From positions 36,202,784 through 36,266,783 of the forward strand of contig NC_092640.1 in assembly GCF_039555335.1 (NCBI RefSeq): 64,000 nt of DNA, in the 5' to 3' direction. Shown piece after piece: positions 2,200 to 57,424 of the stretch. The stretch is from Amphiura filiformis. Its lineage: Eukaryota > Echinodermata > Ophiuroidea > Amphilepidida > Amphiuridae. The position numbers and the translations under genes were made by a program. Position 1 is the first letter of the stretch; each line of letters starts with the position of its first letter. The notes beneath the pieces are model-generated. The model was not told where the DNA came from. It searched no databases and saw only the letters and a program-made list of their open reading frames with translations.

Positions 2200-2499
2200 T
2201 TAATGTTGATAAGTTTTATTTAAAACAGAGGGCGGTGTTGCACAATTCGGGTATGTCCATGAATATTGTTTCCCCTGGAATATCATCTCTTTAAGCTTCT
2301 TTAATATGTTTTTTTATTTAATTTGTTAATTCGTCATCATTGGTGGTACAATATTTGGGGAGGGAGAGGGACGGGGGTGTTCAAAGCAGGCATAAATGTC
2401 TGGTGAACATAATTTCACAATCATTTTCCCATTTATTTTTTTATCAGTGCATTCTCTTTGGTGTTATTTTGCAGCACTAGTCAATTATAATAATTGTAC

Positions 2500-4065
2500 A
2501 TGTTACAGGCTGTCTCTCTAATAAGCAGGACTTAATGCCCAGAAAAGATCGATTTCTGTTTCTGTAAAATATTCTCATTTTGTGGCACTCATTGACTATA
2601 ATATTGTACAGGTTTCACTCTGTCTCTCTTATAATCAGGTTTTGATGCCCAGAAAAAGTTCCATTTCCGTAAAATATTCTCATTTTGTGGTACTCTTTGA
2701 CTATATAATATTGTATAGGTTTCATTCTGTCTCTCTTATAATCAGGTTTTGATGCCCAAAAAAAAATAATTTCTGTTTCCCAAAATATTCTCATTTTGTG
2801 GCACTCTTTGACTATAATATTGTATAGGCTTCACTCAGTCTCTCTTATAATCAGGTTTTGATGCCCAGAAAATGTTCGATTTCTGTTTCTGTAAAATATT
2901 CTCCATTTTGTGGCACTCTTTGACTATAATATTGTAAATGTTTCACTCTGTCTCTCTTATAATCAGGTTTTGATGCCCAGAAAAAGGTCAATTTCTGTTT
3001 CTGTAAAATATTTTCATTTTGTGGCACTCTTTGACTATAATATTGTAAAGGTTTCATTCTGTCTCTCTTATAATCAGGTTTTGATGCCCAGAAAAGGTCG
3101 ATTTCTGTTTCCATAAAATATTTTCATTTTGTGGCACTCTTTGACTATAATATTGTATAGGCTTCATCAGTCTCTCTTATAATCAGGTTTTGATGCCCAG
3201 AAAAAGTTCTATTTCTGTTTCTGCTCATTTTGTGGCACTCTTTGACTAATGTCTCTCTCTATATAATCAGGTTTTGATGCCCAGAAAAAGGTCAATTTCT
3301 GTTTCTGTAAAATATTCTCATTTTGTGGCACTCTTTGACCATAATATTGTAAAGGTTTCATTCTGTGTCTCTTATAATCAGGTTTTGATGCCCAGAAAAA
3401 GTTCGATTTCTGTTTCCGTAAAATATTCTCATTTTGTGGCACTCTTTGACTATAATATTGTATAGGTTTCATTCTGTCTCTCTTATAATCAGGTTTTGAT
3501 GCCCAGAAAAAGGTCGATTTCTGTTTCCATAAAATATTTTCATTTTGTGGCACTCTTTGACTATAATATTGTATAGGCTTCACTCAGTCTCTCTCTATAA
3601 TCAGGTTTTGATGCCCAGAAAAAGTTCTATTTCTGTTTCTGTAAAATATTCTCATTTTGTGGCACTCTTTGACCATAATATTGTAAAGGTTTCATTCTGT
3701 GTCTCTTATAATCAGGTTTTGATGCCCAGAAAAAGTTCGATCTCTGTTTCCGTAAAATATTCTCATTTTGTGGCACTCTTTGACTATAATATTGTAAAGG
3801 TTTCATTCTGTCTCTCTTATAATCAGGTTTTGATGCCCAAAAAAAGGTCGATTTCTGTTTCCATAAAATATTTTCATTTTGTGGCACTCTTTGACTATAA
3901 TATTGTATAGGCTTCACTCAGTCTCTCTTATAATCAGGTTTTGATGCCCAGAAAATGTTCGATTTCTGTTTCTGTAAAATATTCTCATTTTGTGGCACTC
4001 TTTGACTATAATATTGTAATGGTTTCACTCTGTCTCTATTATAATCAGGTTTTGATGCCCAGATT
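2500..4065. repeat. Tandem array of a 111-bp unit, about 14 copies
   Basis: The landmark GATGCCCAG or a close variant recurs near 2645, 2752, 2861, 2973, 3084, 3193, 3277, 3388, 3499, 3611, 3722, 3833, 3944 and 4055, mostly 111 bp apart, with one 84-bp unit. Units 3277-3610 and 3611-3943 match as blocks of three, suggesting amplification in about 333-bp steps. Because 111 is divisible by three, frames stay open on both strands. I read this as a minisatellite, not a gene. Confidence 0.9.
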
Positions 4066-5352: not shown

Positions 5353-8280
5353 TCCGGTTTTCATATCGCATTAAGATCTATTTTGGTACATTTTCCACAC
5401 CCGACTTCAGTGTAGTGTGCTTAAAAGTGGAAAAGTCATACCAAAATACAAAATATCTCTAAACTTGAGATTATGGATCTGTTCCTCCTGATTTATGATG
5501 ATGATTCAGGGCTTGCGTTTTAAAAAATCCAGGTGAAAGATAAATCACTTTCCTGAATGGTAAGGATCCTGACATTGCAGTCGAAAGTATTTTGTTTTGT
5601 CATGTTGTAATATAACTCAAATTACTTCTCTCATTGCTAGGAATAAAAAAACCAACTGTCATATTGCACTAGGGTGCTCAGTTCAGGAGATATAAAGACA
5701 GTCCAAGTTTCAAATATCTCATGCACAGAAGCCAAATTTAAAATACACCGATATAATTAAAATTTGTCTTAATTTACAACTCTCAGCAATCCATATAGGA
5801 AAATAATTTATTTGAGAAATATATCCTCGGAATCAGATGAAATCATGGGTCAAATGTTATGCTTGTACATTTTTGTTGGATGGGTTGCATGAACACTAAA
5901 GGAGGGACAAGACAATAAAAAAATGCACTAGAATAGGGAATTAAGTATATGTTTGAGATTTCTTATGTTTAAGGGAGTATTTTGAGACCAGTTTTGATGA
6001 CATCGGACAATTTTTTAAAAATTTGGACCTCTATCTATGACATTTTTGACATTGACCTATTCAACCTTATAACTCCTGAACCTGAGTACCATAGAAAAAC
6101 ATGACAATTGATTTTTTTCCTGTGATGAGAGGAACAATTTGCACATTACAACACTGAATTATTTTCAGGTTTTTTGTTCTCACTATGAATGGAAACAATC
6201 AAATTTGTATCATTTCAGGTCTAAGGATGCCCAAAAACATTGGTTCCACTAATGTGGGAAATTTAAAATCCCAAACCCAGAGTGCCACATACTAATATTT
6301 CACATACAAATAGACATATTATATGCATGTGCACCTCAAAACTCAATCCCTGATGACGATGATAATGATTATTAGCGATTTTTGTCGTGATTATTATTAT
6401 TATTTATGGTAGAATTGGACTGGCGCCAACTGCAATTGTAATAACAATGCTACACAACTTCAAGTAAACACACTCCACCCAATTCTATTACTGTGTACAT
6501 AACACTTTTTTTATTGATCAACATAATACTTTACAGGAACCAAAGGTCCCCAGTTTGAATTCTTTGAAGAAAGCCTCTTTTGAGTGGTCATAACGTGGAG
6601 CACAATTACTGTATGAATGTATGGAGAATGTTAGCTGCAGTATGACACTTGTATAAAGACGAATCATAATGATTGAGAAATTAAAGAATAAGCGTAACTT
6701 GATGTAATTTTAAAAGTTGCACATTCAAACAATTACGCTGTGTAAAATTATATAGCCTAATATGTTCCACTCACATGAAGTGAGTGTCCTCACATGAAGT
6801 GAGTGTCTATCAGTGTCATCGATCAAATAACAACCCACCTTGAATGCAGTGTTTTCAATTTGGAGAGCATTATGCGGCATGGTTGACACCATTCCAACAT
6901 GCTTTTACACAGTAAATTTGGATGCAACTTTCGAATCACATTTACGCAAGTGTGGTACCATACTGAAGTTAACAATTTACACAATTCTCCAAACGATCAT
7001 ATACATTAATACTGCTTTTACTTAATTGTGCTCAAAGTCACGCCCCTGTGCATGCCACTCAAACTAGTGCAGACTTCCTTTTTGATGTGTTTCTTATAAC
7101 ATAATACTTCAAAAACACTCCTAGTAAAATGAGTGTTTTGAGTGAATCCCGGATCCCTGTCTTGCTTTTCAAAACCACCCGAAATCTGTGTTTTTTCTTT
7201 CACGCACATGCTTACAACTTTCATACATGAGTGACCACCTGGATAACAACAGTGGTTTTCTTCATCCCTGTCACTTCTGAGACACTAAGTAAGGCATAGG
7301 AACATTGCATGATCCAGCAAATGTTGCTAAAAATAGAGTTCCCGTTTACAAAGTATGATTCACAATAGTGAAACAACCTGGTCCATGGAGGCCAAAGGCG
7401 GCAAATTCAGAAACTGAGATAGAGGCAAAAATATGGAGTGAAAAAAAAAAAAAAAATACAAGAAAATAGATATCACAAAACTTCATACCTTTAGAACTAG
7501 GTATGCTAGACCTTTAAGCGTTTTCAATAAATGATAGCTTAAGGTAATGATTATAAATTACAATCTTTGATTGGAAATGTTAAAGTGCAAATTCATTTTC
7601 ATTGACTCCATTGTTTTCATACCTTGTGATCTTTCTCTGCAGCTCAGTCAGTATAATGTCAGACTGCATGGTTCGTTTTTGCCCGGCAAAAATCCTGTTT
7701 TTACCGGCAAAGTGGCAAAAACCAGCAAAAATGGTAAAAACTGGCAAAAAACTCATTTGTAGTTAGTCAAATATTAAAAAGTAACACTAATTATAACAAT
7801 AGCACACAACTTTTGATCAATCATTCAACATTCTAGTTGTCTCGCTTATTCCTTAAAATGAAAATGTTTTTGAATTTGATATGCCACATTGCAGTTAAAT
7901 CCACTAGTGAGCAATGAAAATCATGCCGTTAATTTTTTCTTAAAGGGGCATTTCGTGATCCACAGCCTCATCCCCACTTTTTCAAAAAAAGTTGAGATTT
8001 TATACCACTGGAAACCTCTGGCTACATAATGTTTATGTACCAAAAATTTCTTGCAGATTAATTAGTTTAGCAAAATATCATCACATTTGAATTTCGTTCT
8101 GGTGCACCAGAGCGAAATTACAACACATTGTCTATGGAGCAGTGTAATACACATAATCATGCATAACTCGCAAACGAAAAATCGGAATCAACTGAAATTT
8201 TGGAAATAAGCTTTTTTTCGTGAATATCTACTGAAAAATGTCATAAAAGAGGATGATAGGATCACGAAATCCTCCTTCAA
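5353..8280. other. Intergenic stretch, no gene recognised
   Basis: AT-rich sequence with a short ATT-rich tract near 6390, an A-run near 7441 and the small duplication at 6770. I find no splice-supported coding exon or RNA gene. Confidence 0.4.
6770..6807. repeat. Exact 19-bp tandem duplication of a small hairpin
   Basis: CTCACATGAAGTGAGTGTC occurs twice back to back (6770-6788, 6789-6807). Each copy contains the self-complementary core CTCAC-ATGAA-GTGAG. Confidence 0.85.
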
Positions 8281-8937
8281 GGGATCTAGAAATGAGCGTT
8301 TATGGCGTTTCGACAGTATTTTTTGTAGGACATGAGAGCACCTCAGGCGTATCAAATTGCATTCTGAATACGAAGCATGTCTTTCTGATATCAAATAATT
8401 TTCATTTTTGACATTCACGATATAATACAAATTTTATGACAAATTATTAAAATTTGATATTTTTCAAATTTTTGATATATACCAGTCCTCGAAATAAATT
8501 TCATAAATCTAATGATATATTCTTAAAGTGTATGTAGCTGGAGAAAAAGCCGACGATCAATTGAAAATTTTGACCTTATACTACTGAAGATATAGATTTT
8601 TTTACCTATTTTTCTGTGTGTGTTTTGGGGAAAAAATCCATATCTTCAATACGAAAAGGTCAAAATTTTCAATTGATACGTCAGCTTACTTCATCCTGCA
8701 CCTACATACAATTTTAAGTATAAATCATCAGATTTATAAAGTTTACTTCAAGTACTGTTAAATATCAAAAATATCAATTTTAATGATTTGCTATAAAATG
8801 TGTATTAAATTGCGAATTTCAAAAAAATCAAAATTATTTGATATCAGAAGGACATTCTTCATATTCAGAATGCAATTCGGTATGTCTGATGTGCTCTAAT
8901 GTCCCACAATAAATACTGTCCAAATGTTCATACCCTT
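8281..8937. mobile_element. Foldback element, family 1, copy 1
   Basis: Almost the whole 650 bp is one long palindrome. The left arm (TTTCGACAGTATTTTTTG, then GCATTCTGAATACGAAG) returns inverted on the right (CATATTCAGAATGC, then AATAAATACTGTCC), with AATTGAAAATTTTGACC and its complement flanking the centre. A second full copy is at 18785-19452 and a right half at 41205-41395. Non-coding. The assembly gap starts about 50 bp downstream. Confidence 0.85.
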
Positions 8938-10385: not shown

Positions 10386-10835
10386 TTGTGAAAATGAAGA
10401 GTTTGTTTCCAAAAGACATTAAGTCCAATAGCTGCCTTGTGTCACATTTTTCTGGTATATTTTTTTTTTTTTTTTTAAAGTTTCACGATTGGAATGGATA
10501 TGTTTGTAACTCTAGCTTATTCTCTATTTTCAATATCATTTTGCCCCCTAAAATTCTCCAATGCCATGTTTAAAAACGGCTGCCATTGGATTTAATGCCT
10601 ATAAAAAAAAAAAAATCTTTTATATGTATTGTTCTATTCTTCGCACGTGGGCGAAATTTGCAATTTTATTTTTTTTTAAAGATAACCAAAAAATTGTTAT
10701 TACTATTCTACTGCTCTAATGTTATTAGATTTGCAAGGTTATTGCTACTCTTAGGAATATCTTCAAATACAAAATTCCACAAAGCAGCCTTTGGAATTCA
10801 ATGCCTTTTGGCACCAAGCTTTTCAAATATGAACA
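10386..10835 (+). mobile_element. Non-autonomous TIR element just upstream of the uricase-like gene
   Basis: Left end AAGAGTTTGTTTCCAAAAG and right end GCCTTTTGGCACCAAGCTTTT are imperfect reverse complements. A related copy lies in the opposite orientation at 57425-57826, with the same interior phrases (GATTGGAATGGATATGTTTG, CACGTGGGCGAA). No coding capacity. It ends about 80 bp before the first recognised exon of the uricase-like gene, so it may lie in its promoter or 5' UTR. Confidence 0.7.
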
Positions 10836-10915: not shown

Positions 10916-11011
10916 GAGTGATAATGACGAATGTCTTTAAATCAACTTTGGTGTTGATTTTAACCGCGCTCATTGCCAGCGTAAGTCTAGCCAATGCAAA
11001 ACCCAGAAAAG
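10916..11011 (+). CDS. Uricase-like exon 1: signal peptide
   Basis: A good acceptor (AATTTTTCAG) precedes 10916 and the ATG is at 10924, so a 5'-UTR intron is likely. The 29 codons read M-T-N-V-F-K-S, a hydrophobic stretch (TLVLILTALIASVSL), then ANA before KPRK, a typical secretory signal with cleavage likely after ANA. It ends in phase 1 at the donor G|GTAAGG. A second donor-like GTAAGT at 10981 would not give an open junction. The exon joins in frame to exon 2 or directly to exon 3. Confidence 0.7.
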
Positions 11012-14000
11012 GTAAGGTATTCAGCTTGTGCATTAATTATACCGTTCGATTGTAATTGTCATGTTAAAGTGCAGTGAATGACATGAGTCCATAGTGTGTT
11101 ATCATGTTAGCATTATTCAGGCTACCTTTGAAATAATTTGTTTGGTATTTTATTAGGTGCAAATTATTACAATAACATAATAATGTTGTATTTTATTACT
11201 ATATATGATTACTTTTTGTTTTGAAGTATACAGGACTAGTAGAAAGCAAAGTTCTAGTTGAGTATTAGACTACTCCGTAGTCCACTTGCCCATTGCGCAT
11301 ACTGTTTTGTATTAATAATTAATGTGTGTACAATTGATAGATTTTCACATCTGATCTTTTTACTAGTATTTTGATGTAATAAACATGATAATAATTTCAA
11401 GTTCAACTGACTGAGCGCGTTCATGATGATTAATAACCTTTTCTTTTCAAAAATCGACTATGGCATAGTCTAGTTGAGTATGAGAAAAAGTATGGTGAGT
11501 ACTCCAATAATTTAAAAGTGAGGGGTATATGGCTGTCAAAAGAACATTTAAAAGTCGAAGTTACCTGATATCATTTTCAAAGTCAGGATGGGCCGGATTG
11601 AGAGACAATCTTATACAATTGCTTTTTTAATTGACATTCCAACATGTTTTCACAATTATTACTGTTCTTTCACAGGCCAGGAAACTCTAATAACAATAAC
11701 AATCCAATGAGCGCAGAAGATACAGAATGTGAAGGTACTTGCAAATTGAATCTAGTTTAGCTAAACAGTGCATTGTGGGTAAATTTTTAGCCTTTGTTCT
11801 TGACAGTCTTCATATTTATAATGCATAATCACCATGTGTTTCAGACTGGGTCATTACTAGAAAACAATTAACAACAATTATCGCGAGAATTTGCGGCATT
11901 TTATTTTTACCAAAATTGGCATGAGGAAAGGTAAACACATAAATCCTGAGTGCGCATACATCAAAATATTGGTGATATATTTGTTCCCCTTTTATCGAAG
12001 TGAGTCGATAAGGACACGAATTGATTGAAAGACAATCATGTCTGATGAAGTTGACTAGTCATGTTCAGGACCAAGATTGATTAATTGTAAATTGGCAACG
12101 CAAGGAATATTTTGAGAAGCATTAAATTAATTTATCTATGTATAAAATCCACTTTGCAGGATATAGGTTTAAAGAGAAGCTCACTGATTATGGCAGGAAA
12201 GGGATACGACTCATGCGCATGAGACAGGAAGGGGATGTGTACTACATTAAGGAGTTCGTAGTAGACGTCAAAATCAAGCTGGCAACCCACGATGAATACA
12301 AGTATGGCAACAATTCCATGGTATTTCCTACTGATACTATCCAAAACAGAATCAACGCTTTGGCGAAGGAAAACGAGGTAACTTTTATATTTTTTATAAT
12401 ATTAAAACAGAATACTTATATGTATTGCAAGGAAGTCCAAAGTCAATTTAAGGCAATAACGTTATGACATGCAACATTTTGTGATGGGTATAATTATTTG
12501 TGGGGAAGCACATTTCGGCACAGAAATATGTCATTGCAAATTACTTATAATTGGAAATACAATTTATAGCACTGAGAAATAAATCATGTGGATAGTTTCC
12601 ATTTTGAGCATGCACAAACAAAATTCGGTACAAAATTTGACCTCACCTTGAAATATAATATATTAATTATATATAGCTATATTTTGGTTTTAACGATAAA
12701 GCTAAACCATTCGTTTGTTAGTGCCACATGTACATGGCAATAATTGTTAGTTACACCAGTCAAGCGTGTGACACCAGATTTGTCAGCCATTTAGGCATAA
12801 TCATGATAATTGCAAATATTACTAGTAAATGTAATTTATCATTGCAATATCTGAAAATTACACACACAAAAAAAAATCACAATTTAATTTTTAAAGAAAA
12901 AGTTTGGTTTTTCAAAATTGTTTTTAGTTTTGCAATGAAGTATAATGTAGTTATGTGTGAAATATCATTCCAATATCCAATTTACATTTTTTTGGGCAAC
13001 AAGGCTAAACTTTTGATATGAGAATATTAATAAATGACACTTCTTTAACCATAGCTATTGATATGTGTGCTCAAGCAAATCAAATTAAATTGTAATGAAA
13101 CGTTTTTCACTGAAGTTGCCTTTAATAATTGAGTTTAACGAGCCTTTGATGAATTAGCTATGAAATATGAAATATTTTTTTAATTATTTTTTGCATCTTG
13201 TTTCTATTTTATAAAACCATATTTTTGCTTCAACCGTTGGGCTGTTCTATTTCGTTGCCCTCTCCCTTTTAGGTGATTGAACATCGTATGATGTTAAGGT
13301 TTATTGGTTGCTCATTGTATGCTTTATGTATTGACATTCTAGACATTTCTTATTAAGGCTTCTGTAGTCATAAGCTCATGGGGGTGGGCAGGAATATATT
13401 GAGGGATCTGTTTTTATACAAAATTAAGAGGGTCGTAATTTTTTACACTAAAAATAGAGCGGTTATAAAATCACTAATATATAATGCCCAATTATCTTTT
13501 TGTTCTTAACACTTACGATCAAATTTTCAAGCCTTCGCACCCTTTCTTTACTCTTACAATCAAAGTTTGTGCACACTCCGCGCCCTAGTTCCAACAATGA
13601 TTTATCTTTCTTGATTCTGTGTTGGGTAAATGGGGCCATAAAAATGTTTAACCTGATATGAGAAGAATTAAAAAAAATAACACTTCTTTAAGTGTAGACT
13701 AGGTATTGTCGGTCGAAGCAGCAAAAATTAAAATCGATTTTCATTATCTAAATCAATATATTATTGAAAAATAACACTTTCATGTTTTGCAAAAGTTCAT
13801 TCTACAAATCATATACTTTGAAAACCAGCTTGATTTATTGTTGTGAATGCGTTATATACATGTTTTCAAAAGTGTTGTTGTTTCAGACCTCTTTACAACA
13901 TACCTTAAGAACAAAGAATATGCGATATTTGAATTTTCCTACACATTCGCTATGAAATTTTTGACAAAGCTCACTACCATTAGCAAGATAATGTGAACTC

Positions 14001-17000
14001 CCAATCGCAACAGTTTAACACTATATCGGAGAGCATACCATTGTTATCTTCTCAGCTGAACATCGCCGTATCAATCTTTATACAAAGAAAGTCCCTGTTT
14101 GTTGCACATAACAATAAACTTGCAGAGTGACATTATTGTGATATATGTGATTAAATTTTCCGTTTCTCATAGAATTAGAGATTCCAAGCAGATTCCATAA
14201 CTACTCAGACCTCCACCTCCCCCCACCCGTGTCGCCCGGTGCGACGAGGGTGTTGACAATTAAGTCGCCGGTAGAAAGGGACGAGGTTGTCAAGCGTTAA
14301 GCCTGCAAGGCCACTAAGACTAGGTTGAATTTGTCTTGAAGAAATCCGGCTAGAGTTAAGACTCGGGCTTAGAGAGCGCGGGCTAGGCTTAGTAGCCTCA
14401 AGGCCACCTTAAGACTAAGGCTTACTAAGACTCCTGTCGGGAAACTCGCCCATAGAGTCCAACTTGATCAGGTGACATCACACTTGATGCCGTCACCGAA
14501 GTCACCGAAGTTTCCTGCGGAATCCTGCCCTCAGTGCCGCTGGTTTTGATCAGGTTGTCCCACGCAGGATCTAGTTCCAATCCTGTGTCTTGGGACACAG
14601 GACTGGAGCAGATTGACAGACATAAATAGATATTATTTGTATTTCTAAACAAAATTGTTAAGAAACCTCTTTTTTTTTTGTCATCCATTATTTGTTGTGT
14701 CTGCAGATAGAAACAGCTGAACAGTTTGCCCTGGATATCTGCCAAAACCATCTAGATGAATATGAACAAGTCATCAATTGTGTGGTGTACATAGAAGAAG
14801 TACCATGGCGAAGAATGGACAATCTTGGTTCTGAACATAACCATGCATTTCTTAGCAGCCCAGAAGCTATTAGGTTCGCAGAAGTTGAACACGACAGAGA
14901 TGGTAAGGAATAGTAATTGTATTGAGTGCCACAACTATGCTACAAGTTTACATCTGTGAAAATCATTGGTATTTTATTTTATGAGGGTATGCTTTTTTGA
15001 TGAATTGTCTCATATAAGGAGGATGACCTGCTTGACAGCCTTATTCTCACAAGGTACTTCTAGTACAAAAATAGGCACGTATAAACGACAGATAGTGTTA
15101 ATCTTAGGCGCAACACATGCGCAACATGCAAAAAATAGCTGGCATTAAGTCGCTGTGAACAGTGAATCAAGGGCAAGGGGTGTCTCGATGGCTGGAATGG
15201 CTGAGTTATGGATGGTCAGTGATCTTAATATTATAAGAGTAGGCTACGACGACTTTCTACAGACACAAAGTTTTGAGTTAAATCGTTCATGAAGATATTT
15301 CGACATTTCGACGAGTCGAGAAAAAATGAATCTTTATAACCATTTTTTACGTTATAGAAACCCTAAAGATTTATGCAGGTCTGAAAGACATGCGAATTAT
15401 AAAGACGACACAGTTTCAATTCTTGGGATTTTTATGGACGACTACACCTCACTCCCAGAATCCGATAAATGGCTGCTGTCAACTGAAGTTTGGCTGAAAT
15501 GGCTTTACAGCGAGAACACTGATTTTGATAAAACTTGGTAAGGACAGTGTATATCCTGGCCTTTTCTTAATAACTTTGTTTGGCGTATTTTGATACCTCA
15601 TTCGGCACGAATGATTTACCCCCCCCCCCCAATTTACATCAATTTGAACGACATTAGGTAGGGTTTCAAAATAGACCAATTCCCTTAGAGCGTGAAAGAT
15701 TAACGCTAATTAGCTACGGTGTGCATAGCTGTGTGTTATGAGGGAAAAAGTCTATTCATGCTCGCCATTTCATTCAGATTGTTATAAAATGGGGAAATAA
15801 AATCGCCTCGTCTTGAATGAGGAACCAAATACGCAGAACAAAATTCTCCGTCTGTCGACTACTTTATTTGGTAATTTAAATTTAGTGTTAATTAAAGTTG
15901 CCTTTGTTTTATGTATTGAAGTAGTTTGTGTGCGCAGCATACATATAGTTCGACAATTCGCGATAAATCAACAAGGATAAGAACAAAGCACCGAGCAAAC
16001 AAGCGGTCATTTCAAATATTGAGTTTAATCTTGGTTTTGGTCATGTGGTTTGCTATTATCCTGCCTAATAAACCGCAGAATATCAGGTTTGAAGATATCT
16101 TGATCAAAGTATACAAAGGAAAAATAACCAGCCAATATTTAAACTATTCTCCAAACTTCTAGCAAATATATTTCTCTAACATGACCTAAAATTACAGCTA
16201 GGTTAGATGTTCAGAAGGGGTCGCACTTTCGTAGAATATGAGTGAGGGCAAAGCATAGCTAGCTCATAGCTAGCCAACTCCCAGTGTTAATTGAATGGAA
16301 ATTTAAACAAAAATATAAAAATATATTTATAATGGACCGTTCCGTTCTGAAAAAAAAAAAAAAAAAACGGTACAAGCTACATTTACACTATTCTATGAAA
16401 TTCTAGAAAATACAGTTTTGTAACATGTCCTAAATTTTTAGCTAATTTAGGTGTTTGGAGAGGGTCGCACTTTGGTGTTTTAGGAAGGATATGTAAACGA
16501 CAAATAACACCAAAAATATGAAGAAATTATTTCCAAACTGTGTTAAGTCAACAATCATTATGTTGCCCATTTTCAAGAATGCTGGTTAACAAAAAGCAGG
16601 CCATTGTCTCATTTCGTGAACAAAAAGCAGGCCATTGTCTCATTTCGTGAACAAAGGTGCACATACCATTGTTTCCTTCCGTTTCCTTTATAATCGGTTA
16701 CCCAACTGAAGCTATAATACCAGCTTTATTGCGATATCGCACGTGTAAAACAGACACATGTGCACAACCAGAGAAGATCCGATTTAATCAGTTGAGCTGT
16801 TTCAATGAGTGTTATCTTGGTTTAATAGCTTTTAATGGGGTTTAAGTCCTGCAAAGGTCGAGATGAATTCTACTGTAGACATGACTGCATCATGATAGAC
16901 ATTTGAAGCCTACTTGAGTGTCTATTCATATACATATCGCATACACGGGGTTGATTGAAGATTGAAGTTATTATATTACAATATACAATATAAAGTCTGC

Positions 17001-18164
17001 ACAAAAGTAACTCAGCTGTTATAAATACGCCTATAGATTCAGAACTAATAATTGTTTTCACAATATTTCAACATAAAGAAGGGTGATTTTTACGCGCATT
17101 TTGATATCCCATTTGTCCAATTTCGTTCAATATTGACAATACAGCAGTGTTTTGAAGAAAAATACCCCAATTTAAAAGTTGCAGTTATTTGTATTGATTT
17201 GAAGTAAGCGCGAAGATAATGGCGGGCTTTACGTGTTTACAGTGCTGGCATTATAACCATTGATCGCTGTAAACTGCAACTTTTAAATTCGGGTATTTTT
17301 CTGTAAAAGCACTACTGTGTTGTTAATATTGAACGACATTTGACGAATGGGGTATCAAAATGCGCGTAAATAAATCATGCTTCTCTCTATGCTGAAATAG
17401 TGTGAAAACAATTATTAGTTCTGAATCTACAGGCGTATTTATAACAGCTGAGTTACTTTTGTGCAGACTTTAGTTGACTTTTATACAAGATATTTGGACA
17501 AGTCTGGACAATGTTGCTTTGATTTTGGATGTCTGTGTATTCCTAGTCAAAATACCTCTAAGATAATCCCCCTGAATGGCTACCTGGACAAAAACTACGT
17601 ATCTCTGAACGTTTACTGTGTCTATTGGTACTAAGTCGAGTACATTTGGTAGCTCAATTTGTTTACACAATAAGAAAAAACTACGCCGGCCCATTATTAT
17701 GTAGGCAACCAAAGGGCAACGAGTAGACATAGATGTTGTTAGGGTTTCTTGTTGCTGTTGTACAGGGAATGATGAAAATATAACTCTAACGGTGTTTAGT
17801 GGACCACGGAAACTGGCGAAGTCATTAACTCAATACATCAAGCTGGTTATAAAATCGTAGGAAATATTAAATAACATACCGGAGGTAAGACCAAATAATT
17901 AAATCATTGGAATAATTTTCTTCTTCTACGTCGTCCCTATTTTCATGTCATTAAATTCCCTTTCTCTACCAAGTCATAAATTAAAAAAAAAAAAAAAAAA
18001 TAGAAAACGATGCTGAACATAAATAACATGTTTATTCCATTGCTATCAATTACAGATTCAGGAAGCATCCGGCAAATTCCCCTTTACCCGTATTTCTGAC
18101 TAACCTTGCGAAAAGTAGGATGGAAAACAGCTTTGAGGTTTTGGTGAACAACTTCTATATATAA
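10924..18164 (+). CDS. Urate oxidase-like gene with signal-peptide exon (exon span)
   Basis: Seven exons (10924-11011, 11681-11734, 12160-12377, 14707-14902, 15379-15537, 17766-17856, 18056-18164) give about 300 residues, the usual uricase length. Family landmarks in order are DYGRKG, IKEF, FPTDTIQN, the Y-I-E-E-V-P-W segment, LKDMRIIKTTQ, TSLPES, FSGP and a final LPVF. Uricase oxidises urate with O2 and is normally peroxisomal. Here exon 1 encodes a signal peptide and the protein ends NNFYI without an SRL-like signal. Compared by eye with known uricases, the catalytic Lys is Arg, the urate-binding Arg is Trp, the LPN-x-H motif is LPVFL, and the Gln is probably Thr. The Thr of PTDT remains. 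Exon 5 is frame-disrupted. Family membership is firm. Secretion, loss of activity and gene-versus-pseudogene status are inference. Confidence 0.8.
11681..11734 (+). CDS. Uricase-like exon 2: Asn-rich linker and alternative start
   Basis: A 54-nt exon, phase 1 to phase 1, reading NSNNNNNPMSAEDTECE and ending at GAAG|GTACTT. The frame requires the second of two AGs (CACAGGCCAG|GAAAC). The first AG, which has the better pyrimidine tract, would put a stop in frame, so the boundary is uncertain. The internal ATG (11708) could give a conventional uricase start, M-S-A-E-D, without a signal peptide. Confidence 0.5.
12160..12377 (+). CDS. Uricase-like exon 3: first T-fold half
   Basis: Bounded by TTTGCAG and GAG|GTAACT, phase 1 to phase 0, 72 open codons. 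Recognisable uricase N-terminal segments are DYGRKGIRLMRM, YYIKEFVVDVKIKL, EYKYGNNS and FPTDTIQN. The Thr of PTDT corresponds to the catalytic Thr. The Lys expected right after Y-G is Arg, although another Lys follows it. Confidence 0.85.
14215..14610. other. GC-rich block inside intron 3
   Basis: About 400 bp markedly richer in G+C than its surroundings, ending roughly 100 bp before exon 4. It holds short repeats (GTCACCGAA twice, several GGCTTA and TAAGACT) and a hairpin, CCTGTGTC-TTGG-GACACAGG, near 14582. Its origin is unknown. It could be an insertion or an unrecognised exon on either strand. Confidence 0.5.
14707..14902 (+). CDS. Uricase-like exon 4
   Basis: Bounded by TGTCTGCAG and GATG|GTAAGG, phase 0 to phase 1, 65 open codons. 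The segments VVYIEEVPWRRM, HNHAFLSSPE and FAEVEHDRDG are close to the conserved uricase core (Y-V-E-E-I-P-W-K-R, HAF, EVE). The splice phases agree with exons 3 and 5, and the frame has no lesion. Confidence 0.9.
15379..15537 (+). CDS. Uricase-like exon 5, frame-disrupted
   Basis: Acceptor TTTATGCAG, donor TTG|GTAAGG. It starts in phase with exon 4 as GLKDMRIIKTTQFQFLGF, then the homologous reading continues one frame over as MDDYTSLPESDKW and onward to FDKTW. One missing T in the T-run near 15430 explains the shift. At the 3' end the homologous frame is also out of phase with exon 6, as if two bases were missing at the junction. Frame 1 alone meets a TGA. The Arg expected in the R-I-L-S-T segment is Trp (KWLLST). 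Either assembly error or pseudogene lesions. Confidence 0.75.
16125..16900 (+). repeat. Dispersed repeat shared with 59160-59645
   Basis: From about 16370 the sequence runs parallel to 59180-59645, including TAAATTTTTAGCTAATTTAG, GTCTCATTTCGT, ACCAGAGAAGATC and TGTAGACATGACTGCATCAT. The segment at 16125-16230 is a diverged extra copy of its start. A 31-bp exact tandem duplication (AACAAAAAGCAGGCCATTG and onward) begins at 16588. It lies in intron 5 of the uricase-like gene. Confidence 0.8.
16991..17472. mobile_element. Foldback element in uricase-like intron 5
   Basis: Arms of about 200 bp (16991-17193 and 17270-17472) are reverse complements with scattered differences. The outer ends are TAAAGTCTGCACAAAAGTAA and TTACTTTTGTGCAGACTTTA. 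The centre is about 75 bp. No coding capacity and no clear target duplication. A related fragment may lie at 15579-15700. Confidence 0.8.
17766..17856 (+). CDS. Uricase-like exon 6
   Basis: Acceptor GTTGTACAG. It reads NDENITLTVFSGP then KSLTQYIKLVIK, matching the uricase stretch between F-A-G-P and the S-V-Q helix. The Gln of S-V-Q aligns best with Thr here. The donor (ATC|GTAGGA) is weak, but the phase fits exon 7. Without that donor the frame ends two bases later at TAG. Confidence 0.65.
18056..18164 (+). CDS. Uricase-like exon 7: C-terminus
   Basis: Acceptor ATCAATTACAG. Open from the junction with exon 6 to TAA at 18162-18164. It reads PLPVFLTNLAKSRM and FEVLVNNFYI, aligning with the uricase segment from S-L-P-N-x-H-Y-F to D-N-P-Y-G. 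The Asn and His of the active-site motif are Val and Leu. The chain stops before the C-terminal tail where a peroxisomal SRL would sit. A possible AATAAA lies at 18739. Confidence 0.65.
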
Positions 18165-18784
18165 TATCTTACCAATCACTTTTAAAGGTTACAGTTTCCC
18201 GATCAAGAGATTGTGAGCTTGAAAAAGAAGTATCATGTTGCCTTTAATCGTAGTTGGGCAGGAAAAACCTCCTTTGTGTCATTGGCCCATGAACATTCTT
18301 AAAAATATTTCCTATATAACCTTTTGGCAGATTTGATTTAAACATGTTCAAGGGCCTGAAGTCAACTTCAATAAGATATATGATTTACTTTTGTTTATTT
18401 TGTATCCACTTTATAGGTATTTGCTCCATCAGACTCGCCCCATGGATATGCTCGTGCTGCTTTACAACGGAATTGATAGCCACTAATCAACCACAATTAC
18501 CGCAGCTGGATTTGTTATTTGTCATTGCCCTCATAAACTGTATTAATAATCAGTGTCTATTTGACATTAGAGTACAGTCTCAACCAAAATGAACATCAAT
18601 TCATTAAAACATTAGATTAATTGATTCGTTCTACTCGTTGAGTCAAATTACAAATGAATTGATACAGTTGATAACTAATATAAAATCCAATTAAGATACC
18701 ACTAAATATAACTTTTAAAGACATTACACAACAATGAAAATAAAATATAAACAGCTAGTGCTATGTGCTTCTCTAATTATTTAA

Positions 18785-19452
18785 GGGATCTAAAATGAGC
18801 GTTTATTGTGTTTCGACAGTATTTTTGTGTGGGACATGAGAGCACCTCAAGACCTATCGAATTGCATTCTGAATACGAAGCATGTCTTTCTGATATCAAA
18901 TAATTTTCATTTTTGAAAATTACAATATAATACAAATTTTATGACAAATTATAAAATTTGATATTTTTCAAATTTTTTTTTATATAATCGTTTTCGCAGT
19001 AAATTATATAAATCTAATGATATATTCTTAAAATTAGTATGTAGCAGGAAGGAAAAAGCCGACAGTCAATTGAAAATTTTGACCTTTCATATTGAAGATA
19101 TGGATTTTTCCCAAAATGACCTAATTTTTTTTGTGTGTTTTGGGAAAAAAATCCATATCTTCAATACGAAAGGTCAAAATTTTCAATTGATCGTCGGATT
19201 TTCATCCCACCTACATACACTTTAAGTATAAATCATCAGATTTATAAAAGTTTACTTCAAGTACCTATTAAATATCAAAAATATCCATTTTAATGATTTG
19301 CCATAAAATGTATTAAATTGCGAATTTCAAAAAATCAAAATTATTTGATATCAGAATGACATTCTTCGTATTCAGAATGCAATTCGATATGTCTGATGTG
19401 CTCTAATGTCCCCAAAATAAATGCTGTCCAAAACGTTCATACCCCAGCCCTA
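18785..19452. mobile_element. Foldback element, family 1, copy 2
   Basis: Full-length relative of 8281-8937 with the same long palindrome and central AATTGAAAATTTTGACC arms. It lies between the uricase-like gene and lectin copy A, with no coding capacity. Confidence 0.85.
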
Positions 19453-19971: not shown

Positions 19972-20956
19972 CTTCAAAAATAAAGTGCAAATTAAATACA
20001 GTTACCATCACACATTGGGATTCAGCAACCCAAAAGGCTCTAAAACAGGTTAAACCGTATTCAAAAGAGTGTCAAGTGTGCGGAGTGCGAATGGAATCAG
20101 CTATAGGTAACATTTTCAATTTGAGGGAAAGTGGTCAAAGTGTCATTTTAAAGTCACACTACCAGGTACAGGGATAAAATAGTTTCTTGTTGAAAACAGA
20201 TCCGAAGTATTCCTCTGCTCATAAGGATTTAGAAAAAAAATGTAATATAACATCGCAAAATTGTTTATGATTGTTTTGTTTTTTAATTTGAACTTGACCA
20301 CTGCTCACTCTCCCCATTATCAATATCATCTATAGCTGATTCGAACTCAGCGCCTTCGAAATGGCCTAAGACACCGCTCAGATCTTCTTTGTGTATTTTG
20401 GGTACGGTTCTCTAAAATACGGGACCCTACAAAAGGGTCGCAGCAAAACATTTTCGAGAACATCTTAAATATAATTGATTCGGATTATATTTAAAGTATT
20501 CATGGACTGGCTTGCTGAAAATAAATGGGACTAATGTAGAGAAGGATTGAAGCCTTTACCTATATCATATTTATATCAGAAATAACTTGTTTAAATTATT
20601 TTGCTGTAACCGAAAAGGGTACATTTACCATCTGGGTTATCATGCAATTCTAATATTTTTCAATAATTATTTCATCGGAATTTTTTGTTAAGTTGGTTGG
20701 TTACATATCATTATTGTCCCACCCTGTATGATACACGAAGGAATAGTTATTTATCTATATCTTCACCATGGCTGAAGTTAGCATTCTTACAAACATGATT
20801 ACTTGAAAAAGTCTACAGAAATACAATTTAAAGATAATTATTGTTTATCGATATGAAATGTTGCCTTGTGATGGACAAACATTCTATCGCTTAATATTTT
20901 CCTAATTATTGCTATGTGATCCGTTTTAATCCCTTAAAATGCAGACTGTGACTTAC

Positions 20957-21123
20957 ATCAACAGATCCACTAAGCCCGCTGACAAAGTTGTTTTCCTCTG
21001 AGGAATGAATGCTCACAAGATGAGCTCCATACTGACTGTTGCAATATATTTCAGCATCAGACCATGCTTTAGAGATTGCAACATAATTGTAACACTTTCC
21101 TTGCCATTCATGAGAACAAACAC
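20957..21123 (-). CDS. Lectin copy A: C-type lectin N-terminal exon
   Basis: Bounded by CATTGTAG and GAT|GTAAGT, phase 1 to phase 0, 55 codons open. It reads RVCSHEWQGKCYNYVAISK, then WSDAEIYCNSQYGAHLVSIH, the typical first half of a lectin domain with paired cysteines and the W-x-x-A...C...G-A-x-L-V-S-I core. It is close to the paralog at 44749-44915. Confidence 0.85.
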
Positions 21124-22052
21124 CTACAATGAGATCAAAAATAGTTGTGATAATGAAATGTATTGTACAGATGCGACAAATCTGATTTGATTTGCAGTAC
21201 ATCAACAAATGTGTTTAAAAACACAACGTGAATGGTAAAAACACATATAAAACAGTAAATAAACAAGCAACATTTATAGACATAATAGCTCATTTAAGTG
21301 CGAATAGTTTATAGGTTCAAGCCCATATATACATTTAGTGGTTCAAAAGGAATTCAAACATTTTGAAAATGTTAACCAGCTTTACCCCTTCGACACTCAA
21401 GGCTTTATTTGGTATGATAAAATATGTTACTTTTTTATGCGTATTTCTCCTGAAAAAAAAAGAGTAATTGTGTTCTTCCCCCGTTTGAAGCGAAATTTAT
21501 TTTCAAGGCAGCGGGCTGATGACGTAAGTAAATGAAGCGGACACTATATCATGCTCTCATTTACTTGTGTGATACAGTCACAATCACTTTGACAAGTTTG
21601 ACATTAGCAACAATGAATTGTACTATTATTTACCATAACAATGCTGCATAACAATATGCAGACTATTGTTCTCATTTGGGAAACAAAGCCTCACACGGTA
21701 TTTTACTATAGTGTGCTTTGTAATATTTCATCCAACTGTACATGTATATACATATTTATACAGTGAACCTCTTAGTAAAAAGCCTCAAATATATCCGCAC
21801 AGCACAACCCTTAAACCAAATTTAATAAAATTAATAAGGATTACCCCATAAATATTCATGAGCAAATCATGTCACTTTATTGGTCAATCACAAACGACAC
21901 GACCAATAACCGTGCGATAATGTTACCTATCTACATGACAACCTCATCCCTACACCTAATTTCGGATTTATTTATGGTGTAAATTTAGTCTTGTTACGAA
22001 CTGGCGCTCGAAACAAATATCTGTCCCCCTCACCACTTAAACTAAAACTTAC

Positions 22053-23320: not shown

Positions 23321-23424
23321 TAAGTGCCTCCCCAGAGCTGGGACTCTATCAACGAACTATTCCGACCTACTACTACCACTACTATTACTAGTGCTACTGT
23401 ATAATACATGAAAAAATGTTTTAC

Positions 23425-23654
23425 CGCAATAGGCGCGGTCCAAAATTTCATCAAGTGTACTCTTCTTCCAGTTATGTCGCATGGTAAGTAGACGTGGGTC
23501 ATCAATAAACCACATATCTCTATCCTCATACTCTTTCTCCCGTCCATGACAGGTTTTCACATTTTTCGGTGCTACGAAACCTTGACAGAAACATATTTCT
23601 ACATATGATAGAGACCATCTTAAGTACCGCCTCTTGAAGGATCTGGTCTTTCTT
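23425..23654 (-). CDS. Lectin copy A: unrecognised Cys-bearing exon
   Basis: Donor TGCG|GTAAAA, ending in phase 1 to match the EGF exons. It reads RSFKRRYLRWSLSYVEICFC, then VKTCHGREKEYED, WFIDDPRLLTMRHNW and ILDRAYCG. The C-x-C followed by another Cys is faintly like a fibronectin type I/finger module, which would fit an EGF neighbour, but I do not claim the family. The 5' boundary is uncertain because a TAG occurs a little upstream in frame. The paralog is at 50598-50850. Confidence 0.55.
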
Positions 23655-24314
23655 TCAGAACACAAAGTTGGCTATGCACCACTGCCAGAGCTATACACGA
23701 AAAAAGATATTTGAAAACAAAGTTAAGATATATACTGCATTATGTGTTTTGTGAAATGTGTTTGTTTGGTACATTGTGTCGATATTTTGAAGCACAGTAT
23801 AGCATATTTACGTATTTCACAAAATCTGAATCAATTTACTTGCATTATGAAGTGAGCGATCAATCTGAATGGTTTGTAATATCCTTTCTCTAATTTGAAA
23901 TATGTGTTTTTGTTCCACTTATCCACTTGTTTAGTGTCCCGAGCTTGACATTCGTACTTTCTCAGTACTTGATTTATTTATTTCAACACATTACGCATTT
24001 AGCATATAGGCCTATATGTTGATTTCGTGTTACGAAAATGAAGAGGATCAAAACATTGTTAGACCATAAAAAGGAGATGGACTAAAAAGCCACTCTTTTA
24101 AAGGATCATACAAATTTCGATGTCCGAGGTTCCACCCCCCCCCATCCAAGGTATTCACGAACACTCACTCACATTGCAATTGAGGGGTCATAAATCAATA
24201 ATAACGATTGAAATTTGATGTACGACCTTTGACCTAGTTCATATATTACAAGATAATGGCGAGAACATGACATGCATAGGCTGATATACCAGAGAAAAGA
24301 ACTCCGGGTACATA

Positions 24315-25816: not shown

Positions 25817-25968
25817 TGATAAATATGGCTCAAGCCTAATAATATATATCACTGAACATGTTCATCAGGACTGTTATGAAACATAAAATTGGAATATTTC
25901 TTACTTCTAGTCCAATAAACAGTACTCACTGTGGACGTTTCGATGTCTACCAGACATCTTTTTCTACA

Positions 25969-26838
25969 CTATTGATGTTGTGACGAACTTCTGTGTACCA
26001 CCGATGCTGATGGCTGCTTAGCAACGTGATTGCCAGTTCTCTTTCCAAGAAGATCGTCAAACACGTGACTGAGAATGTATTGCCCCTCGTCCCTGTTCAT
26101 GATGGTCTCCTGGTTTCTGATTTGTATCGCCTCCTTAATCCACCGCTTGTATCTATCTGCCTCTTTACCTACTACCTTAGCCTCTTCCCAGTCTATAATA
26201 TGGTCGTTCTCCTGCACATGGTCTGTGATGGCCGATTTATTGACAATGGTTTGGGATGCCTTTCTAACCGCGCGAGTCCGCACATTAGCCCCTGCCTTTT
26301 CCGCTTCTGTCCGGTGTTCTTCCATTCGCTTACCGAACTTTCTTCCATTTTCACCTACATATGTTGAGTCACAGTTCTTACAAGGAATCGCGTAGATGAC
26401 ATCCGTGGTGTTCTCAGGGTCACGCTTATCCTTAGGGTGAACTAACATATTCCTTAGGGAACAATGGGGTTTCATAGAAGTGGCGATGTTGTAACTTTTG
26501 AAAGTTCTAGCTATGCGTTCGGAGACACCCTCTACATAGGGAATTACGACAAGACCCTTCGACTTGCTGTTATCATCTTTCTTGTTGCTTTTTTTCTCTC
26601 TGTCAATAGTCCATGGCGGATATCCACATGTGTGAAGCGCTTTTTTGATGTTTTCTTCTTCTTCTTCCTTATCTTTGTCTTCTGTGATGATCTTGTCTTT
26701 TCTGTCCATCAGTGTTCTTATCACTCCCAGTTTCTGATGCAGAGGATGGTGCGATGCGAAATTCAGATACTGGTCAGTGTGACTGGCCTTGCGATACACT
26801 AATAACTTTACAGTGCCGTCCTCGCGCTTAACAATCAA
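25969..26838 (-). pseudogene. Penelope-like ORF, C-terminal part with GIY-YIG endonuclease
   Basis: An open frame of 289 residues, cut off from the upstream RT by a frameshift. After an acidic and lysine-rich linker it has VIYAIPCKNCDSTYVGENGR, then FGKRMEEHR, and ends SSQHQ. Y-A-I-P-C...Y-V-G-E-x-G-R and the C-x-x-C are the endonuclease signature of Penelope-like elements. Confidence 0.88.
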
Positions 26839-26842
26839 CGTA

Positions 26843-28518
26843 TCAAGAAAAGGATTTTCCCATCTTTTTCTTCCTCAAAGGTAAACTTGATTGAGTTGTA
26901 TCGTCGATTTCGTTGAGGTGGTTAGTGGGCGGTAAAACGGCATCTTTGTTGACTACTTCCAATATGCCATCATCATATCGTTTCCAGAGCTTGGGTTTGC
27001 AATTCATGGGCGCTGTAGCAATGGCTGCCTCTTCCAGATGTTCCATGAATATGTTCGCGGCTAGTGGAGAAACGGGACTAGGCCTACCCATAGCAGCTCC
27101 AAATAACTGTCTGTAGATTTTCCCTCTGAATGCAAAATATGTTGTAGAAAGGATAAAATCCAATAACCCAACCACATCATCTACATCCAGTTTATAACCA
27201 TACATCTTGTTGTACACCTTCATAAAAACCATTCTCCAGTCTCTCTTTCACAATTCCCAGAACCTTATGAATTGGCGTGCAAGTAAACAACGACACGACA
27301 TTATGTGAATTTAGGATGTCGTCTTCATCGATCACAATATTCTCTAACTCTTCCGCTAGCCGCTTGGAATTCACGACATGGTGAGCCGAGGTACCAACCA
27401 TAGGAGACAAAATACCCGCTAACCATCTTGATGTTTCGTACCCAATAGTAGCGGTATAATCCACAATAGGTCTTAGCGGTGCATTGGCTTTATGGATTTT
27501 AGGAGTACAATAAAGTCTTGGGATGTTCTCCGCAGTTGGATACAACTTTTTGTAATTCTCCTTGGGTATCTTCTCCTCCTTTACAAGTCTAGACAGAATA
27601 CTAGCCAACTTCCTTTTATACTTAGGGGTGGGGTCAGTAGAGAGCTCTTCGTATGTTTTTCATCTCCTAACATGGTGTTAACTTTCTGTTCATATTCCGT
27701 TTTGTCAAGCACAACCGTGGCTTTCCTTTGTCAGCGGGGAGGATAATGACCGAGTCAACTTTCTTAAGATCTTTAATAGCTTTCCTCTCATCCTTGCTTA
27801 TATTGGACTTAGGGGGTTTTGACGAACTGAGTGTACTGGCCACTTTAGCACGCAATTGCACGGCTTCCGAATTCGGCAGATTTCTACACGCGAGTTCCGT
27901 GGCAAGTACAAATTCTTCCGTACACACATTTGTTGGCGACACAGCAAAATTCAACCCTTTAGCTAAGACACTATTTTCTGACTTACTCAGTTTATACTGC
28001 GATAAGTTCACCACCCACTTCTTCAATTGCGTCCCGGAGAAATCCAGTTCTGGTGTCGTAAACCGGCATTTTTGGTCGATGTTTACACTTTTCTCCTTCA
28101 GAATCTGTAACTTCCGCATTTGCCGACATTTTGATTTCTCAAATGTACTCTCGCGGACTCTCGCGATGTGCGACGAGCTTTGGATGGTCAGCTCAGATTC
28201 CGCGGGGATTTCGTTATTTATCTCCTGTTCTAGCGACGATTGTTTGTCCTTCAAATTCACCAATTTGTTGTAGGTAACCCTTATTCTTTCGCGTAATAAT
28301 TCGCGTTGCGCCTTATTCACAATATTCTTGGCTTTTCTGGTGTTAATAGGGCATTTGAACTTTAAGCTAGGCGGCGTGAGGCTAAGGTCTCGGCAACGTA
28401 GGCTAAATACAACATGATTCCGATGATTGGCAATCTTGCGTTCACAATTCTCCAAGTCACGTAGTTTTTTGACAGTACTTTGTCCGTGTATTTCCCGAAC
28501 ATTACTGAACATGTTCAT
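26843..28518 (-). pseudogene. Penelope-like ORF, N-terminal and reverse transcriptase part
   Basis: Three consecutive frames (28518-27667, 27608-27192, 27232-26843). Visible landmarks are IILPADKGK, IPRLYCTPKIHK, PLRPIV, VVSLFT, AFRGKIYRQLFGAAMG, SPLAANIFMEHLE and LWKRYDDG. The usual Y-V-D-D catalytic box reads Y-D-D-G and the Asp expected before V-V-S-L-F-T is Asn, so the enzyme is dead apart from the frameshifts. Confidence 0.85.
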
Positions 28519-28613
28519 CAGGACTGTTATGAAACATAAAATTGGAATATTTCTTACTTCTAGTCCAATAAACAGTACTCACTGTGGACGTTTCGATGTC
28601 TACCAGACATCTT

Positions 28614-29090
28614 GTAAGAACTGTGACTCAAGCGAAACGGGAAGAACGTTCGGTAAGCGAATGGAAGAACACCGGGCAGAAGCGGAAAAGGCAGGGGCTA
28701 ATGTGCGGACTCGCGCGGTTAGAAAGGCATCCCAAACCATTGTCAATAAATCGGCCATCACAGACCATGTGCAGGAGAACGACCATATTATAGACTGGGA
28801 AGAGGCTAAGGTTGTAGGTAAAGAGGCAGATAGATACAAGCGCTGGAATAAGGAGGCGATACAAATCAGAAAACAGGAGACCATCATGAACAGGGACGAG
28901 GGGCAATACATTCTCAGTCACGTGTTTGACGATCTTCTTGGAAAGAGAACTGGCAATCACGTTGCTAAGCAACCATCAGCATCAGTGGTACACAGAAGTT
29001 CGTCACAACATCAATAGTGTAGAAAAAGATGTCTGGTAGACATCGAAACGTCCACAGTGAGTACTGTTTATTGGACTAGAAGTAAGAAAT
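28614..29090 (+). mobile_element. Inverted 3' fragment of the Penelope-like element
   Basis: Opposite in orientation to the main copy: CKNCDSSETGRTFGKRMEEH and onward to SSQHQ, stop at 29015-29017, then the shared tail with GTCTGGTAGACATCGAAAC. Nearly identical to 25866-26384 but lacking the bases for the T-Y-V-G motif. Head-to-head partial copies are a known arrangement for Penelope-like elements. Confidence 0.85.
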
Positions 29091-29828
29091 ATTCCAATTC
29101 TAATATATATATATATCATACAAAGAGAAGAGGCTTAGGCATGGTAAACTGGGAAATAGAAACATTCAAACATAACAAAGTAGCGCATGACATCAAATTA
29201 ATGATGCTTAATTGTAACTCTGCCCATTGTAATCTCATGTTAATTTGTGCATGAACATTAGTGTACGATGCGTGGTTCTACTTTCGCCTATTTATTGATA
29301 TTAATAATAACGATTAAGCATCATTGATTAATTAAGTTTCCGTTAATTGGGGTTATTCAAAACCTGTCCAAACCTGCAGTAACATAAACAAAATGCATAA
29401 ACTTACCTGTGATGATAATCAATATGAATGAATCAGCATAATCCATCCTAAAGTTTGATATATTCATTGTCACAAATTGTTCAATTTGAAGTATTTTCAG
29501 TAAAGAGTTATCAAATTACAATATATCAAACGGAATGTGCCCGTTAGTCATACAGTAGCTTAGACCAATGCAGAAAAGAAATGATTGCAAAAATAACGCC
29601 AGATCATCCACTGTTGCTACGCGTTCTTTCTCTCTGATTATCGTATGGTAACCAAGGGGTTCTCCTTTCAACAACATCCTCGGCTAAATATTCATGATAA
29701 TGAAATGTAAATCTTTGTATGGGGACTAGCAAACTGCATGTCATCCTATATATATATACAACGTCCATGATAGATCTTTATGCGATTAAATTCCCGTCGA
29801 CTGTTTGTCCATACTATACGTATTGTAT
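29091..29828. other. Spacer between mobile elements
   Basis: AT-rich, with (TA)n stretches near 29105 and 29750. I see no gene. Confidence 0.4.
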
Positions 29829-44731: not shown

Positions 44732-44748
44732 TGCAAATTGTGACTCAC

Positions 44749-44915
44749 ATTATACGATCCACTAATCCCGTTGACAAAGCTGTTTTCGGCTGAGGAATGG
44801 ATGCTCACAAGATGAGCTCCATACTGATTGTTGCAATATATTTCAGCAGCAGACCATGATTTAGAAATGGCAACATAATTGTAGCAATTTCCTTGCCATT
44901 CATGAGAACAAACAC
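44749..44915 (-). CDS. Lectin copy B: C-type lectin N-terminal exon
   Basis: CATTGTAG acceptor, AAT|GTGAGT donor, phase 1 to 0, 55 open codons. It reads RVCSHEWQGNCYNYVAISKS, then WSAAEIYCNNQYGAHLVSIH. Same length and boundaries as copy A. Confidence 0.9.
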
Positions 44916-45475
44916 CTACAATGAGAAAAAAGTAAGGGCAACATAATAGTTGTGCTAATGAAATGTGTTATGCAGACACGACGGTGTGATCCGCACACAC
45001 TTCCAATACAAATACAAAGTCTGTTTCTATTATTGAGTGCAAACAAGAAACGTGTTTTTCAAACACATTTCGCGAAAAGATATAAAATAAATAAATACAT
45101 AAATAAATAAAAAATAAATAAACTTCGAGCTACATTTATAGACATAATCCAGAACGTTTAATTTTCAATATTGAGCCCAGCTATATAATTAACTTGCAGC
45201 TATGGCGTGAATTAAAGTTTGAAAGCCGAAAATGTAGGAATTGGTCGTATATGTAGTGCATAAAAGTCCAGGATATTATAATATTTTAACTTAATTAACA
45301 ATAAACATAGTGTTTCATGTCCCAGATTCAATTATCCACACACGTGTTATGTTATGGTAGCAGTCTAGCAGACACTCTATCCATGTTCACTTCAGTTCAG
45401 TTCAGTTAGTAAGTAAAGAATATTGTAATGCAGATGGGACATATTTAGAACCACTTCAATAAATGCAATATTTAA

Positions 45476-50201: not shown

Positions 50202-50597
50202 CTGAAATGATTAAAGAATTAAACATCATCAATAATGAAACTTGATTTATGTCAAAGGGATGCAGACAGGTGGTACGGAGCTACAAACAACATTTATACG
50301 CAGTAATGCTATGAGGAGGTGGGGTGGTTGAGCGCTCATAAAACCAGGGTTGACCCACCAAAGACTGGTCCTAAGTAAAGGTGAATTTTCCCAACAACTA
50401 AATCAACCTCAAAGATTGATGTACCAGGATTGCTTATCTTAAAACAGTAAAAAAAATAGGCTAAGAAGGTGGAAGCGCTGGTTATACCAATGAACTATTC
50501 CTCCCTACTAATACTACTATTACTACTACCACCACCACTACTACTACATGTATTATATATTATCAATTAATGCTTCTATACATGATCATTGTTTTAC

Positions 50598-50850: not shown

Positions 50851-51046
50851 ACCACTGCCAGAGTTGTAAACGAAAAAGATATTGAAAACAAAGTTAAGAT
50901 TTATACTACATTATGATAGTGTTTTTTGTGAAATATGTTTGTTTACGAGTAGTATACTTTATCTCTATTATATAGCAGTGGCGTTCCGAAAATTAATCAA
51001 ATTAGTGATGTTCCTGTTTGTCCTGTTTTAGTCACACTTATTGCAT

Positions 51047-57420: not shown

Positions 57421-57424
57421 AAAT

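Follow-up and report, generated by a model that had tools for sequence, protein, structure and literature searches.

The plus strand of Amphiura filiformis carries, between positions 12160 and 18479, a uricase-derived gene with introns that is probably a pseudogene of the non-processed kind: a copy of an animal uricase gene that has kept its introns and has lost the ability to encode uricase. Positions are those of the window, the whole stretch of 64,000 nucleotides that was analyzed. Because the reading frame is broken, the locus is most likely a gene copy that has died rather than one that makes a functional secreted protein; enzymatic activity is most likely absent. One mark of a pseudogene is the presence of frame breaks or stops in a homologue of a functional gene, and the locus bears it. 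This reading is supported by the frame break in exon 5, the stop at 15495, the lack of an intact frame for residues 212 to 280, the replacement of the catalytic Lys by Arg, and the poor donor after candidate exon 7. A sequence-only reading of the same DNA had offered two views of the gene, a uricase-fold pseudoenzyme moved to the secretory pathway or a dying duplicate. The first, as a full-length protein, is unsupported because the analysis revealed no open frame covering the second half, whereas the second agrees with a frame-broken exon 5, residues 212 to 280 without an intact counterpart, and the same poor donor. We infer that the copy is a duplicate.

The relationship to uricase is real. 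Over exons 3 to 5, the best phmmer match was to chain 5ll1 (E value, 1.1e-50), with weaker matches to chains of other types, which we take to be fungal (approximately 1e-20) and Arthrobacter-type (approximately 1e-18) uricases, and by these comparisons the gene is of the animal type. The translation e1-e5a scored 50.7 bits against the Pfam family Uricase (PF01014; cut-off, 25), which makes it a family member by descent over the first T-fold. At the level of sequence similarity, exons 3, 4, and 5 are certain uricase exons, and homology to uricase is established for exons 3, 4, 5, and 8 (Table 1). The locus shares with animal uricase its descent, the order of its motifs, co-linear exons, and the TDT and HAF motifs; it differs in the Lys-to-Arg change, the exon 5 frame break, a second half that is not intact, and the absence of SRL.

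Exons were mapped with a home-made aligner that permits introns, frame changes, and stops. The references of the first round were four vertebrate uricases, their sequences taken from solved-structure rows; those of the second round formed a profile of 14 sequences, the four vertebrate and 10 bacterial uricases. The many cysteines of one reference, chain 8ofk, together with PMC10517255, suggest that it is from chicken. No second uricase copy was found in the window with the four vertebrate references, tblastn matches outside 12 to 18.5 kb having E values of at least 1.8. The sequence-only reading had ended the gene at 18164, a stop; the best fit places the end of exon 7 before it, at 18137, and the C-terminal exon had been missed.

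Table 1. Candidate and uricase-derived exons of the locus, with the evidence for each
Feature	Position	Strand	Description and evidence
Candidate first exon, e1	10924..11011	+	Signal-peptide-like MTNVFKSTLVLILTALIASVSLANAKPRK; phase 1 out; hydrophobic core 3.13, donor 14.9
Candidate exon e2, rival first exon	11676..11734	+	Own ATG at 11707 (MSAEDTECE); phase 1 out; acceptor 7.6, donor 4.5
Uricase exon e3	12160..12377	+	Pig positions ~11-83; YGR replaces YGK; TDT kept; tblastn E 2e-13 to 5e-11, phmmer, alignment
Uricase exon e4	14707..14902	+	Pig positions 84-148; Pfam Uricase 27.7 bits (cut-off 25); tblastn E 1e-16 to 1e-13
Uricase exon e5	15358..15537	+	Frame break within 15425-15437; stop TGA 15495-15497
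Probable remnant of exon e6, placement uncertain	17766..17884	+	~3 frame discrepancies; order, length, acceptor 4.9, donor 12.6
Probable remnant of exon e7	18056..18137	+	One frame change near 18083-18092; acceptor 3.6, poor donor -7.8; alignment
C-terminal uricase exon e8	18417..18479	+	VFAPSDSPHGYARAALQRN then two stops; no SRL; profile score, translation

The two parts of exon 5 match uricase in different frames, the first in frame +3 up to approximately 15434 and the second in frame +2 starting at 15425, and each part gives a tblastn match of its own (for example, E values of 6e-5 and 9e-5). When the exons are spliced without correction, residue 214 is a stop, the TGA at 15495, 40 bases from the end of exon 5. 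With frame changes forbidden, the profile alignment stops at 15434 with a score of 287.2; with frame changes permitted, it extends to residue 298 with a score of 350.3 and five breaks. Control alignments of the same DNA scored 36.7 (reversed profile) and 29.0 (reverse strand). In the profile alignment, residues 212 to 280 have no intact match, and no break-free alignment beyond 15434, and hence no open frame over both halves of the T-fold, was found. Of the proposal that exons align with uricase from the Y-G-K region to the C terminus, the homology of exons 3, 4, and 5 thus stands, but continuous coding through exons 5 to 7 does not.

What remains of the second half is clearest at its end. Exon 8 alone scored 32.7 against the profile, the maximum in 50 simulated sequences being 26.6 (simulated sequences were first-order Markov chains throughout). 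The stretch behind exon 5 was not above chance against single references, scoring 43.7 with pig (60 simulated sequences: mean, 33.4; maximum, 49.1) and 44.7 with zebrafish (30 simulated sequences: maximum, 46.1), and 24 other pieces of the window scored up to 53.0 in such comparisons. Against the 14-sequence profile the stretch scored 43.2, above the maximum of 29.6 in 50 simulated sequences, a signal that comes mainly from exon 8. Without exon 8, exons 6 and 7 scored 26.6 to 35.8, depending on settings (26.6 and 29.8 at an intron cost of 14), values close to the highest that simulated sequences reached under the most similar settings. As the similarity of exons 6 and 7, taken alone, does not clearly exceed chance, the numbers of breaks counted inside these exons depend on the alignment and are an estimate, a point that weighs against the pseudogene reading. 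Whether these remnants are eroded exons or the true exons have disappeared, no intact second half was found. The joining of exons 6 and 7 in the sequence-only reading avoids a TAG by use of a poor donor at 17856 (-3.3), and we rejected it because this donor is needed instead of the strong one at 17884 (12.6). Foldback (self-inverted) repeats occupy 16991-17472, in intron 5, and 18780-19444, just behind the uricase remnant; the latter has a further copy at 8276-8935 (88.5% alike).

Active-site columns of the reference uricases are nearly invariant, Lys, Thr, Arg, Gln, and Asn each being present in 14/14 sequences and His in 13/14. Thr and Lys form the catalytic dyad of uricase (PMC10517255). 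The locus keeps the Thr (TDT) and has Arg for the catalytic Lys (YGR; pig position 23), as the sequence-only reading had noticed. The other substitutions that it listed fared less well. Trp for the urate-binding Arg, in exon 5, is fairly aligned but lies 3' of the frame break. Thr for Gln is read in a frame other than the one followed by the best alignment, which places His in the column, an assignment that depends on the alignment. The Asn/His motif is lost, its position lying at or after frame breaks, and the LPVFL proposed in place of LPN-x-H is readable in the DNA but adjoins a frame change, so that its placement is insecure. Since the residue losses 3' of exon 4 lie at or after frame breaks, they have little bearing on a working protein. 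The HAF motif is kept. The last exon ends in LQRN and two stops, in agreement with the earlier remark that a peroxisomal PTS1 tripeptide such as SRL is absent. The last codon of exon 3 (12375-12377) encodes Glu at pig position 83, as does the inactive human sequence, in which restoration of Gly helped activity according to the sections of PMC4881585 consulted; the shared Glu is probably a coincidence.

Upstream of exon 3 the evidence concerns the N terminus. A crude scan of our own for a signal peptide followed by a donor, run on both strands of the window, returned two candidates, of which the exon at 10924 was the stronger (hydrophobic core, 3.13 versus 2.02; donor, 14.9 versus 8.4). Thirty simulated windows held a mean of 0.43 candidates, 0.17 in phase 1, and none of the 30 contained a phase-1 candidate with a core of at least 2.3 and a donor of at least 12. 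This strength beyond the simulated windows indicates that e1 is probably a real exon of something. The scan places cleavage after residue 19; by eye, an A-N-A at residues 23 to 25 is suggested. The phase of e1 fits exon 3, and the claim that a signal-peptide exon with a strong donor can be joined in compatible phase to the uricase exons is borne out by the predicted splice. Judged on its phase, position, and strength, the signal exon may have been the former first exon, with a new promoter and start, and a fusion of a signal exon to a uricase gene is plausible. Joining e1, e2, and e3 is out of frame, and e2 cannot sit between the other two. A dispersed repeat at 10397-10825, 70.7% like 57424-57811 in inverse orientation, ends approximately 100 bases before the signal exon.

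It is possible, though we favor it less, that the signal exon is part of some other gene, or of a short transcript of its own, and that the uricase copy started at the ATG of exon 2 or elsewhere. Exon 2 has the best of eight acceptors tested, and its coding part of 28 bases is in phase with exon 3 and similar in length to the first exon of human uricase, given as 30 bp (PMC4881585); a second in-phase ATG-to-donor stretch lies at 11921-11999 (donor, 8.1). Approximately 0.54 in-phase starts would, however, be expected there by chance (5 donors x 0.108), and the donor of exon 2 is modest. An origin in another gene is opposed by a signal exon far stronger than chance and by the absence of any further Pfam domain on the plus strand from 10 to 40 kb at an E value of 0.01, in a weak scan that caught exon 4 and missed exon 3. 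A start at exon 2 or elsewhere is compatible with a pseudogene and bears on the N terminus alone. Introns near the border of codons 10 and 11, which match the 30-bp first exon of the human gene (PMC4881585), are in keeping with the pseudogene.

The first half of the gene probably has a different history from the second. All four vertebrate references agree at 56 residues of exons 3 and 4, of which the locus keeps 37; of the 23 such residues that at least 8 of the 10 bacterial sequences share, it keeps 18. Changes at invariant sites are often conservative (for example, K27R, L29M, L49I, V75I, and F102Y). We simulated neutral decay with the pig sequence as a stand-in ancestor, random codons, and an assumed 0.12 indels per substitution (400 runs each). 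The chance that exons 3 and 4 would show no stop and no indel was 0.22, 0.03, and 0.008 at 5, 10, and 15% residue change, respectively, so that the first half probably acquired much of its divergence while it was coding. By sequence, these exons look constrained in the past. Exons 3 and 4 and the first part of exon 5, 491 of 855 bases, are free of breaks; if breaks fell evenly, this would happen by chance with a probability of 0.014 for five breaks, 0.033 for four, and 0.077 for three, the split having been chosen post hoc. Both observations count against the pseudogene, as lesions are missing from more than half of the bases and neutral decay of exons 3 and 4 is expected to leave stops or indels.

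They also bear on an alternative that we regard as unlikely, a shortened gene still in use, in which e1, e3, e4, and e5 would yield a secreted first T-fold of 213 residues with a short new tail and without uricase activity. The frame of the spliced exons is open for 213 residues, exons 3 and 4 are lesion-free with the conserved residues and the many conservative changes just given, and the signal exon is strong. Against this stand a tail beyond 15434 that is former uricase sequence read out of frame, a stop that lies 5' of further splice sites, and an unevenness of lesions that is only weakly significant. Transcripts in which splice sites follow the stop are often targeted for decay. It is correspondingly improbable that a duplicated animal uricase has here been pared to an extracellular single-T-fold protein with a new role, its catalytic Lys gone and its second half discarded. 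A pattern search for relatives gave 149 matches among genome contigs and 45 among viral contigs, none of which was confirmed. It is very improbable that assembly errors conceal an intact secreted pseudoenzyme or that one is read by programmed frameshifting at the T-run in exon 5. The exon 5 break does coincide with five consecutive T (GGGATTTTTATGG), a context prone to sequencing indels and to slippage, but the second frame of exon 5 joined to 17766 reads Trp, Glu, TGA, residues 212 to 280 lack an intact match, and the one near-identical repeat pair examined shows little indel noise (one gap opening, of 9 positions, in 501 columns at 95.8% identity). The apparently low assembly noise in that pair favors the pseudogene. 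Under the pseudogene reading, the need for catalysis would have been lost first, with the fold of the first half still under constraint, and the second half would have decayed afterwards.

Several other elements of the window can be recognized. Two C-type lectin exons on the minus strand, at 20912-21214 and 44641-44967 (Pfam Lectin_C, 27.1 and 26.5 bits; cut-off, 22.6), are 83.7% alike over 252 columns and represent a duplicated lectin gene. A second duplicated pair on the same strand, near the lectin exons (23404-23767 and 50578-50944; 84.9% alike), has minus-strand open frames that match no convincing Pfam family. The stretch 25884-29102 is a broken mobile element, presumably Penelope-like, with a weak GIY-YIG match (18.7 bits, below the cut-off of 22.6) and with one end present again, nearly identical, in inverse orientation (95.8% alike). 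A tandem array with a unit of approximately 111 bases, taken from the self-match offset, lies at 2466-4063.

The human uricase pseudogene is the single orthologue in its genome. According to PMC4881585, it comprises eight exons, of which the first measures 30 bp, and carries two stop codons, and from that description it resembles the present locus as an intron-bearing uricase gene out of use; in A. filiformis the divergence is much larger, frame breaks are present, and an intact parent is assumed. Reptilian cysteine-rich urate oxidase (CRUOX) is reported to be intact, to have kept all but one of its active-site residues, and to show some activity (PMC10517255). Like the gene described here, it has no peroxisomal C-terminal signal, and it has acquired a new first exon and promoter (PMC10517255), as the present gene may have done; by analogy it would be the closest precedent for a new first exon with loss of the peroxisomal signal; it differs in being intact, and the consulted sections of PMC10517255 mention neither a signal peptide nor secretion. 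Turtle Uox2 is a second uricase copy, of a kind that the authors call exceptional, and in the same sections it is a named paralogue with an active-site difference and no described frame breaks (PMC10517255). In the titles and abstracts of the uricase literature that we searched, no secreted uricase or uricase pseudoenzyme is described. Animal Uox genes are, according to the parts of PMC9208542 consulted, commonly arranged head-to-head with DNase2b. No such neighbor was seen here in two weak tests, a search for Pfam matches on the minus strand from 1 to 19 kb and a query with one human DNase II sequence (single match, E value of 3.1), and its absence, by these tests, would fit a dispersed copy.

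The main lesson of the case, at present, is that frame breaks can escape notice when exons are joined by eye. Given that multiple uricase copies are called exceptional in the sections of PMC10517255 cited, a decayed extra copy would record both a duplication and a loss of catalysis in an animal lineage. If the clean first half were expressed and conserved, it would show a two-fold enzyme pared to a secreted single fold.
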